Assembly: GCF_000661955.1 (NCBI RefSeq)
Contig: NZ_CP007597.1
Coordinates: forward strand, 1 to 64,000
From: Stenotrophomonas rhizophila
Lineage (GTDB): Bacteria > Pseudomonadota > Gammaproteobacteria > Xanthomonadales > Xanthomonadaceae
Length of the DNA stretch: 64,000 bases
Direction of reading: 5' to 3'
Shown: positions 48,652 to 55,528 of the stretch, piece by piece
How the letters are laid out: the number at the start of each line of letters is the position of its first letter
Numbering within the stretch: position 1 is the stretch's first letter
Notes under the pieces: generated by a model
The model's input: the letters and a program-made list of their open reading frames with translations, nothing else
Told to the model about the DNA's origin: nothing
Database searches by the model: none
Translations under genes and position numbers: made by a program

Positions 48652-51600
48652 ACGCGCCGGTGTGCTGGAACGCATCATCGGTGCGTCCATCGCCCACCGC
48701 TGGCTGATGATGAGCCTGACCCTGGTGCTGGTGGCGGTTGGCATCTGGAGCTTCACCAAGCTGCCCATCGACGCCACCCCGGACATCACCAACGTCCAGG
48801 TGCAGATCAACACCGCGGCCCCCGGCTACTCGCCGCTGGAAACCGAACAACGCATCACCTACCCGGTGGAAACGGTGATGGCCGGCCTGCCGCGCATGGA
48901 ACAGGCACGCTCGCTGTCGCGCTACGGGTTGTCGCAGGTCACCGTGGTGTTTGAAGACGGCACCGACATCTACTTCGCCCGCCAGCAGGTGGCCGAGCGC
49001 CTGCAGCAGGTGAAGTCGCAGATCCCCGAGGGGCTGGACCCGCAGCTGGGCCCGATCTCCACCGGCCTCGGTGAGATCTTCATGTACACCATCGATGCCG
49101 ATCCGAAGGCGCGCAAACCCGATGGCAGCGCCTACACCGCCACCGACCTGCGCACCCTGCAGGACTGGGTGATCCGCCCGCAGCTGCGCAATGTGCCGGG
49201 GGTGACCGAGGTCAACACGATCGGCGGCTTCCAGCGCCAGGTGCACATCACCCCGGACCCGGCCCGGCTGCGTGCGCTGGGCTTCACCCTGGAAGACGTG
49301 GCGCAGGCGGTGGAAGCCAACAACCAGAACGTGGGCGCCGGCTACATCGAGCGCAACGGCCAGCAGTTCCTGGTGCGCATTCCCGGCCAGGTGGCCAACC
49401 TGGAGGAGATCGGCAACATCGTGCTGGCCCGGCGCGAAGGCGTGCCGATCCACGTGCACGACGTGGCGCAGGTGCAGGACGGCCCGGAGCTGCGCAGTGG
49501 CGCGGCCACCCAGAACGGCCACGAAGTGGTGATGGGCACGGTGGTGATGCTGATCGGCGCCAACAGCCGCGACGTGGCCCAGGCCGCCGCCGCACGGCTG
49601 CAGCAGGCGCAGGCCAGCCTGCCCGAAGGCGTCACCGTGACCGCCAGCTACGATCGCACCGCGCTGGTGGACCGCACCATCGACACCGTGGCCAAGAATC
49701 TGATTGAAGGTGCGCTGCTGGTGATCGTGGTGCTGTTCGCGCTGCTCGGCAATTTCCGCGCGGCGCTGATCACCGCCGCGGTGATTCCGCTGGCGATGCT
49801 GTTCACCCTGACCGGCATGGCACGCGGTGGGGTGTCGGCCAACCTGATGAGCCTGGGCGCGCTTGACTTCGGCCTGATCGTTGACGGCGCGGTGATCATC
49901 ATCGAGAACTGCCTGCGCCGTTTCGGCGAACGCCAGCACGCGCTGGGCCGCGACATGACCGCCGCCGAACGCTTCGCCGAAACCGCCAGCGCCACCGCCG
50001 AGGTGATCCGCCCCAGCCTGTTCGGGCTGGGCATCATCACCGCGGTGTACCTGCCGATCTTCGCACTGTCCGGCGTGGAAGGAAAAATGTTCCATCCGAT
50101 GGCGATCACCGTGGTGCTGGCGCTGACCGGTGCGATGCTGCTGGCGCTGACCTTCGTGCCGGCGGCCATCGCGTTGTTCCTCGGCGGCCGCGTGCAGGAA
50201 AAGGAAAACCGGCTGATGGCGTGGGTGCGCCGGCGCTATGAGCCGCTGTTGGCCTTCTCGCTGCGGCGCGGGCGCTGGATGGTGGGCGGCGCGCTGGTGC
50301 TGGTGGTGGGCTGCGGCCTGCTGGCCACGCGCCTGGGCAGCGAATTCGTGCCCAACCTGGACGAGGGCGACGTGGCCATGCATGCCATGCGCATCCCCGG
50401 CACCAGCCTGACTCAGTCGATCCAGATGCAGCTGCAGATCGAAAAGCGGCTGGTGCAGTTCGCCGAGGTCGACAAGGTGTTCTCCAAGATCGGTACGCCG
50501 GAAGTGGCGTCCGACCCGATGCCGCCGTCGGTGGCCGACACCTTCATCATGATGAAACCGCGCAAGGACTGGCCGGACCCGCGCAAGTCACGGGCGGCGT
50601 TGCTGGGTGAGCTGGAAGCGGCGGTGGAGCAGTTGCCGGGCAACAACTACGAGTTCACCCAGCCGATCCAGATGCGCACCAACGAGCTGATTTCCGGCGT
50701 GCGGGCGGACGTGGCGGTGATGCTGTTCGGTGATGACCTGGACACGCTGCTGAGCGTGGGCAAGCGCATCGCCAGCGTGGCGGGCACCGTGCAGGGTGCG
50801 GCCGACGTGCGCGTGGAGGAAACCAGCGGGTTGCCGTTGCTGACCATTACCCCCAACCGCACCGCGCTGGCCGGTTACGGGCTCAATCCCGGCCAGGTGC
50901 AGTCCACCGTGGCTACCGCGGTGGGCGGGCAGGTGGCCGGGCAGCTGTTCGAAGGCGACCGCCGCTTCGACATCGTGGTGCGCCTGCCCGAAGCGCTGCG
51001 CCAGGACCCGGCCGCACTGGCCGACCTGCCGGTGTCGCTGGCCCCGGCACTGGCCGGCGATGATGCCGACGAGTCCAGCCGCGCTGGCAGCTGGACCAGC
51101 GGCAGCGCCCGCACCGTGCCGCTGCGCGAGCTGGCCACGCTGGGCAACAGCGAGGGGCCGAACCAGATCAACCGCGAAAACGGCAAGCGCCGCATCGTGG
51201 TCACCGCCAACGTGCGTGACCGCGACCTCGGCAGTTTCGTAACCGACCTGCAGCAGGCCATCGGGCGCGACGTGCAGGTGCCCAACGGGTACTGGGTCGA
51301 GTACGGCGGCAGCTTCGAACAGCTGATTTCGGCCAGCCAGCGCCTGTCCATCGTGGTGCCGGTGACGCTGGCGATCATCTTCGCGCTGCTGTTCTGGGCG
51401 TTCGGGTCGGTCAAGGACGCGGCGATCGTGTTCAGCGGCGTGCCGCTGGCGTTGACCGGCGGCGTGCTGGCGCTGGCCGCGCGCGGCATTCCGCTGTCGA
51501 TCTCGGCCGGTGTCGGCTTCATCGCGTTGTCCGGCGTGGCGGTACTCAACGGGCTGGTGATGATCAGCTTCGTGCGCAGCCTGCGCGAGGGCGGATTGCC

Positions 51601-51826
51601 GCTGGCCGATGCCGTGCGCGACGGCGCACTGGGGCGGCTGCGCCCGGTGCTGATGACCGCACTGGTGGCCTCGCTGGGCTTCGTGCCGATGGCCTTCAAC
51701 GTGGGCGCCGGTTCGGAAGTGCAACGCCCGCTGGCCACGGTGGTGATCGGCGGCATCGTGTCGTCCACGCTGCTGACGTTGCTGGTGCTGCCGGTGTTGT
51801 ATCGGTGGTTGCATCGGAAGAGCTGA
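48641..51826 (+). CDS. czcA: Heavy-metal RND efflux pump CzcA
   Basis: A 1061-residue inner-membrane proton/metal antiporter of the HME-RND family, with 12 membrane helices and two periplasmic loops. Helix 4 carries [18 protein letters not shown] (D409 region), the DFGxxxDGAxxxxEN motif of divalent-cation (Zn/Co/Cd) pumps, so monovalent Cu/Ag specificity is unlikely. The C-terminal ~290 bp (from 51536) are repeated at 55226-55528 downstream of a foreign-looking insert. This copy is complete and ends normally at 51826. No czcRS or czcD is present in the window. Confidence 0.92.
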
Positions 51827-52260
51827 CGCCAGCTAGTGTTCAATTCTAGGGCGTGCTCGGTGTGGCCCGGCACGCGCTAAATCTTAGGTGCCATTTACTG
51901 CATCCCCGTTGAGCGGACCATGTTCGCTGACCCGAGGAGTGCAACATCTCACAAGAAGTTCGCCCCCCGCCCCGTCAATCAATGTGTCTTGACCATGACA
52001 ATTCCGCCAAAACCTCAAAACTTAGGCGACTCCACCTCTGTCGCATCTCCATCCCATTCCCGGTACTGATCTAAAGCGCTTGCTTGCACCCTGACCTATT
52101 CAAAAGCAGGCGATCCATGTGGCCCTACACGTCCGTTAGCCACTTCGTCCCAAATATTTCAGGGGCGAAATGACAACGGATGGGCTACGCATCCCAATTT
52201 CCTCGTCACCGATGGATTCGCTGTTGAACGCGATGCCCTCAGTTGTCATAGTTCGCACTT
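51827..52260. other. Gene-free leader of the insert
   Basis: There are 434 bp without an identified gene. A GCGTGC...GCACGC hairpin lies at 51851-51875, close to the czcA stop. On the minus strand, 52095 to 52015 reads VRVQASALDQYREWDGDAT then VESPKF and a stop, bounded upstream by stops, which could be the 3' remnant of a lost gene. The candidate KAP promoter is at 52224-52252. Confidence 0.5.
52224..52252 (+). promoter_or_regulatory. Candidate sigma-70 promoter for the KAP NTPase gene
   Basis: TTGAAC (52224) and CATAGT (52247) are separated by 17 bp; each matches four of six consensus bases. A start near 52259 would leave almost no leader for the GTG at 52261, so translation might begin at ATG 52279 or 52285. 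Confidence 0.4.
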
Positions 52261-55170: not shown

Positions 55171-55225
55171 CAGCAATGAGACGTTTGGCGTTGGAGGCTA
55201 TGTTCAATAAGGTTGCGGCACCCCC

Positions 55226-55528
55226 GTAGCGGTACTCAACAGCCTGGTGATGATCAGCTTCTTGCGCAGCCTGCGCGGTAACGGCTTGCCGTTGGCCGAT
55301 GCCGTGCGCGACGGCGCACTGGGCCGGCTGCGCCCGGTGCTGATGACCGCACTGGTGGCCTCGCTGGGCTTCGTGCCGATGGCCTTCAACGTGGGCGCCG
55401 GTTCGGAAGTGCAACGCCCGCTGGCCACGGTGGTGATCGGCGGCATCGTGTCGTCCACGCTGCTGACGTTGCTGGTGCTGCCTGTGTTGTATCGGTGGTT
55501 GCACCGGAAGGGGCCTGACGTGGCATGA
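55226..55528 (+). pseudogene. czcA: Duplicated 3' fragment of czcA
   Basis: Starting at GTAGCGGTACTCAAC (55226), this matches czcA from 51536 on with an offset of 3690 bp, keeping the reading frame: [30 protein letters not shown] and on to [12 protein letters not shown]. From 51635 to 51792 the two copies are identical by direct comparison (158 bp); upstream they differ at several sites and downstream this copy runs on to a different stop at 55528. It has no N-terminus and cannot encode a pump. Confidence 0.9.

Follow-up and report, generated by a model that had tools for sequence, protein, structure and literature searches.

Directly behind the metal-efflux gene czcA in Stenotrophomonas rhizophila lies a 3.4-kb insert that carries one long gene, for a KAP-family P-loop NTPase, with a copy of the czcA 3′ end on either side. 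The insert and the duplication are directly visible in the 64,000-nucleotide stretch analysed here (the window), as are, in related genomes, the empty site, the native flank and varied cargo at the same place. For its arrival we favour a reading to which we give about an even chance, namely that a fragment with one KAP gene entered at the czcA 3′ end by recombination through that end and not by an integrase of the insert. The case is a known kind of insertion to which the KAP cargo adds, and there is a modest chance that KAP genes form a recurring one-gene mobile unit.

An insert between two ends of czcA

The arrangement had been picked out in a reading of the sequence alone, which described a complete czcA (we keep its gene name), then a 3.4-kb AT-rich segment with essentially a single gene and no visible integrase, and finally an in-frame second copy of the last ~300 bp of czcA. 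The gene is indeed complete (Table 1), and the second copy is a direct repeat of 286 bp, identical at 273 positions (95%), whose frame stays open from 55247 to its own stop at 55528. The segment is AT-rich as described, with 47–54% GC in 500-bp windows inside it against 64–74% in 2-kb blocks outside 52001–56000, although the AT-rich stretch does not end at its border and continues into the NYN gene behind copy 2, which has only about 57% GC. A foreign origin of the insert is supported.

Table 1. Features of the czcA region, in positions of the window.
Feature	Position	Strand	Description
czcA	48641..51826	+	Complete; 1061 aa; CzcA-type RND efflux pump; Pfam ACR_tran over residues 13-1057
Repeat copy 1	51535..51820	+	3′ end of the complete czcA
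Inserted segment	51821..55224		3,404 bp; about 50% GC; missing from the empty sites of relatives
KAP-family P-loop NTPase	52261..55170	+	969 aa; Walker A GPWGIGKS at 202; DDLDR at 318
Repeat copy 2	55225..55510	+	Native 3′ end of czcA, reduced to a fragment
Native last codons and stop of czcA	55511..55528	+	GPDVA*, joined to copy 2; from comparison with relatives
NYN-domain gene	55571..56278	-	PADLOC model HEC-09; adjoins the czcA end directly in five relatives
EryCIII-like glycosyltransferase	56448..57665	-	Conserved right flank of the spot

The two copies end differently. Copy 1 closes with ...RKS* and then runs into the insert; the last codon and stop (S*) of the complete czcA are not native. 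In the relative G031 the native gene ends in ...RKGPDAV* (pattern ...RKGPDxx*), and both this ending and the DNA downstream of it correspond to copy 2. Because of this match, and because copy 1 ends in RKS*, copy 2 is the native end of czcA and copy 1 an end with a foreign tail, and the insert begins six bases before the current czcA stop. No other direct repeat of at least 60 bp with kilobase spacing was found in the 64-kb window, where the remaining repeat families are local, with 338 bp or less between copies. Two of these local repeats may be mentioned here: a tandem repeat at 69–397 with a step of about 88 bp (copies 62–93% identical to the reference), and a pair of REP-like units at 26874–27463, about 337 bp apart and 87–91% identical, with internal inverted arms.

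That the insert carries one long gene is confirmed by the list of open reading frames, as all others of at least 80 aa within it overlap the KAP gene; no integrase was seen among them, again in agreement with the sequence-only reading. The KAP gene is intact, and its product matches the KAP domain PF07693 with 143 bits (gathering score 20) and has hydrophobic stretches between residues 52 and 145. KAP-family ATPases include known anti-phage proteins, and it is family and genomic setting that point to a possible anti-phage role here. The likeness to the KAP proteins PifA and QatA, and to RdrA of RADAR, is confined to the NTPase domain; the PifA model is matched at model positions 7–253 of 720 only, not as a whole. 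Unlike the QatA and RADAR systems, which have the partner genes QatB-D and RdrB, the insert comes without such partners. A PDB sequence search with a KAP profile returned three matches at E 0.07–0.08, which are not meaningful.

Common marks of mobile DNA were also looked for. ARAGORN found no tRNA in the window, and no terminal inverted repeats were seen at the insert ends, where the longest inverted word common to the terminal 80 bp has 6 bp (P 0.71). A word common to the vicinity of both insert ends, TGTTCAAT, reached P 0.05 by 400 shuffles and was not taken as meaningful.

The spot behind czcA in related genomes

The search for this stretch covered 91 genomes of the genus, the window's own included, and the 40 best-matching czcA loci from them were taken, in most cases together with about 11 kb of downstream DNA. 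One of these loci (L076) has only 182 bp after czcA, and two (L062, L074) have a czcA stop that was placed out of frame. In 10 of the 40, the downstream DNA showed neither the glycosyltransferase nor the phospholipase-D-like (PLD) gene, so that 30 bear on the exact spot.

The sequence-only reading had suggested looking for relatives with an empty site, and such relatives exist. The czcA–NYN junction is uninterrupted in five of the 40 fetched loci (G031, G026, G072, G074 and G029), among which G031 is closest, with 96% identity in czcA. Behind copy 2 the window has the NYN gene on the opposite strand, followed by the glycosyltransferase and the PLD gene, and in G031 the same order is contiguous: czcA (96%), NYN (97%), glycosyltransferase (95%) and PLD gene (95%), at a DNA identity of 94–97%. 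The arrangement in the window is thus not that of all relatives, nor is an uninterrupted czcA–NYN junction missing from them. A second czcA end occurs in none of the 40 loci, where self-matches are 36 bp or shorter (one locus offering just 182 bp downstream). Among the matches listed for the 90 other genomes of the genus, with few candidates scored per genome, none is a DNA match to the insert, and its first 474 bp after the czcA stop matched in 0 of these 90 at the same depth of scoring.

The interval between czcA and the glycosyltransferase or PLD gene varies among relatives and holds no recognised gene, NYN (five full, one remnant), Septu, an AAA ATPase or a LysR gene. The Septu pair PtuA-PtuB lies behind czcA in three genomes (G011, G023 and G069, the PtuA of the last by tblastn alone). 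An AAA ATPase with a partial IetA match is found in six (G040, G058, G050, G047, G066 and G052; two scanned with PADLOC, the rest by tblastn), and in three of the six relatives carrying that gene it sits on the far side of the glycosyltransferase. The loci with Septu or AAA cargo downstream of czcA are L064, L072, L077, L050, L051, L054, L055, L071 and L073. An identity of the AAA gene as IetAS was rejected: the IetA models match the AAA part only (in the two of six scanned), and the 570-aa neighbour, present beside the AAA gene in the relatives looked at (L050, L073), matches nothing. Long opposite-strand open reading frames in the intervals downstream of czcA have no family match and were therefore treated as spurious. 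In one relative, G067 (L045), NYN is cut to its last 63 bp, and the next glycosyltransferase is 97% identical to that of the window although czcA is only 90%; this would be a separate deletion at the same spot, probably with recombination there.

Behind czcA, then, lies a small spot occupied by NYN, Septu or AAA-ATPase genes in related species and by KAP in the window. The idea of a cassette exchanged at a fixed hotspot survives in the varied cargo of relatives; an exchange of cargo between two fixed czcA ends is not supported. The sequence-only reading had proposed to look for relatives with different cargo between two such ends, and other cargoes are bracketed in this way in 0 of the 40 fetched loci. 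For the defence islands of S. maltophilia, a survey lists borders other than this one, guaA among them, and its main text contains no word starting with czc (PMC11680222).

Among 395 genomes of the family, 24 have a match to the KAP protein, the window included; apart from the window, just two of them are matched over most of the protein, at 38–39%. A single-sequence search of genome contigs gave 65 pattern matches, none of them a relative, and phage records queried with the KAP homologue P0013 gave none. One viral contig has a KAP match (32%), and so do nine plasmid records, all under 60%. On two Burkholderia glumae plasmids (L189, L190) the KAP genes have annotated site-specific integrase genes close by, and on L190 a second annotated KAP gene comes next.

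How the segment may have entered

The 13 differences between the copies are unevenly distributed over the 286 bp: eleven fall in the first 100, none in the next 158 and two in the last 28. The identical run of 158 bp is longer than expected by chance (P 0.00035 by site, or 0.0065 when adjacent changes count as one), and because it lies within otherwise diverged copies it suggests recombination inside the repeat; recombination or conversion probably acted in the repeat core. Trees built with 39 of the 40 czcA loci make the copies sisters next to G031 on the full 286 bp (94/84), and on the left 106 bp copy 1 pairs with G031 and copy 2 stands outside, a weakly supported placement (97/31). Eight of eleven copy-2 changes equal the alleles of other species (P 0.027, which is optimistic as four adjacent changes were counted as independent). 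The left part also has a glycine-to-serine change, at a base that 39 of 39 orthologues share, and this looks like the decay of a copy that no longer functions. The left edge of copy 2 may be either donor DNA or decayed resident DNA. In a search of 395 family genomes with two candidates each, none of the matches listed was closer to the left part of copy 2 than copy 1 itself (90%; next 85%), and for the czcA end joined to the insert start, again with two candidates per genome, no match listed extended beyond the repeat by more than 11 bp (query position 91). No donor came to light among the matches listed. Against G031, every full 100-bp bin of czcA is 91–100% identical, with no long donor tract (eight orthologues compared).

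The course that we favour would be as follows. A DNA fragment with one KAP NTPase gene would have joined the chromosome at the czcA 3′ end and left that end in two copies. The driving step would be recombination through this end, with about 290 bp of homology and no integrase on the insert; we infer that the exchange was a homologous crossover or a conversion within the identical 158 bp, and infer likewise where the homologous piece came from. The left copy would keep the resident 5′ side and gain a new tail from the insert, and the right copy would retain the resident tail together with NYN next to it. As the gene end is part of what was duplicated, czcA would remain whole and the insertion would be tolerated. 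The landing place would be an existing spot behind czcA that collects defence-type genes. Against this course stand the searches above that gave neither a donor allele nor a long donor tract in czcA, the low support of the left-part tree and the decay-like change in copy 2. A paper on Vibrio cholerae proposes homology-facilitated illegitimate recombination for T6SS effector modules (PMC5361080). As in those modules, a one-sided homology would anchor the incoming piece, and the former downstream gene stays on behind the newcomer; unlike there, the conserved gene czcA remains complete, and what is left over is a piece of its own end.

A duplication of resident DNA only, with later gene conversion, would explain most of the same facts, and we consider it possible if somewhat unlikely. 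The resident czcA end would have been copied on joining, through a long staggered break or template-switch repair, after which the edges of the dead copy decayed and gene conversion kept the core. The diverged edges around an identical core agree with this, as do the sister position of the copies on the whole repeat and the longer branch of copy 2 (0.040 against 0.011 for copy 1), whereas the excess of copy-2 changes shared with other species, at its optimistic P value, and the weakly supported departure of copy 2 from the copy 1/G031 pair on the left part speak against it. Precedent also counts in its favour: insertion with long target duplication is reported from Helicobacter genomes and tied there to restriction-modification genes (Nobusato et al. 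2000, as cited in PMC1643837, PMC3031569, PMC4978471). The insert shares with these cases a foreign gene between long direct repeats of a resident sequence of which a related genome has one copy, and differs from them in its cargo, a KAP NTPase, and in a repeat diverged at its edges. Its layout places it with the long-target-duplication and T6SS-module cases.

Integrase islands that enter gene 3′ ends duplicate or replace the end of the target gene at one border, and the sequence-only reading had pointed to such integration. The foreign origin and the duplicated end that it described are supported, as are the empty sites that it proposed to look for. The 40 loci fetched from the genus show no second czcA end, and with that no sign that islands of relatives use the same site. 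A recombinase that was lost or acted in trans could have put the segment in place, the element bringing a replacement end that leaves the gene whole. The position at a gene end is shared with such islands; no integrase is visible among the insert's open reading frames and no core can be defined, although the 158-bp run could contain an att core. The gene guaA is a genomic-island target. A KAP homologue lies behind guaA, which also borders a defence island in S. maltophilia (PMC11680222), and the annotated integrases near the Burkholderia glumae plasmid genes add to this side. Set against them are the length of the repeat, its divergence at both edges and the use of three different target genes across three genomes, and we hold entry by an integrase to be unlikely. 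Site-specific integration accounts for the facts no better than long target duplication or homology-driven insertion does, and perhaps less well.

Two further explanations carry little weight. A tandem duplication of the czcA end followed by an unrelated insertion between the copies is topologically possible; it needs two events, and a tandem czcA end without an insert occurs in 0 of 40 loci, which makes it very unlikely. Assemblers can be misled by repeats, but the genome is a single 4.65-Mb contig, the copies differ at 13 sites and both flanks match relatives in order, so that an artefact is hardly credible.

Repeats around other KAP genes

A similar layout around two other KAP genes (L124 and L148) counts in favour of recombination through the czcA end. 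A first, uncontrolled look with 4-kb flanks and E up to 0.01 gave some direct repeat at 8 of 46 KAP loci (L119, L124, L126, L129, L131, L148, L150 and the window). The test set of 45 loci comprised 47 genome loci minus three partial matches (L147, L151, L154) and one under the 300-bp flank rule, plus the window and one viral contig. Repeats of at least 40 bits within 900 bp of the KAP gene occur at 3 of these 45 loci against 0 of 371 control placements within the same loci (Fisher P 0.0012), or at 2 of 44 against 0 of 371 without the window (P 0.011); both P values are indicative only, as the 900-bp flank and the control set were chosen after the first look, and the threshold of 40 bits once the controls were known (best 35.2). 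The three are the window (474 bits), L148 of Halomonas heilongjiangensis (131) and L124 of Shewanella xiamenensis (49). Repeat bracketing is not the usual state of KAP genes, because the other 42 loci show no repeat above the controls.

At the Shewanella locus the KAP gene lies between guaA, identified by sequence reading, and a tadA-like deaminase gene (Pfam). The DNA that runs from the guaA stop to the terminator, about 69 bp, is present twice at 80% identity, and a relative (G527) has one copy of this guaA-end piece and no insert. The Halomonas repeat, of 104–113 bp at 87–88%, consists of the 3′ end of a gene for an endonuclease/exonuclease/phosphatase protein that has a helix-hairpin-helix. 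This case is weaker, because by sequence reading the locus has pieces resembling insertion-sequence remnants and because no clean empty site was found in the 58 genomes searched, its own included. The Halomonas KAP gene is preceded by a TIR-domain gene that matches the PADLOC Aga_TIR models (L148, 8386–9558). A wider reading would take KAP genes of ~970 residues as one-gene mobile units without an integrase of their own, which repeatedly enter gene 3′ ends and duplicate or replace the end so that the host gene stays whole, with czcA, guaA and the nuclease gene as three independent landings; we regard this as doubtful.

Among the papers listed in a literature search on KAP, Stenotrophomonas defence hotspots or flanking repeats, none is of this kind, which is no proof of absence. 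In the window, a defence-type gene other than a restriction gene sits in a long gene-end duplication, and the case is clean in that both the empty site and the polarity are known; it suggests how single defence genes may spread without integrases.
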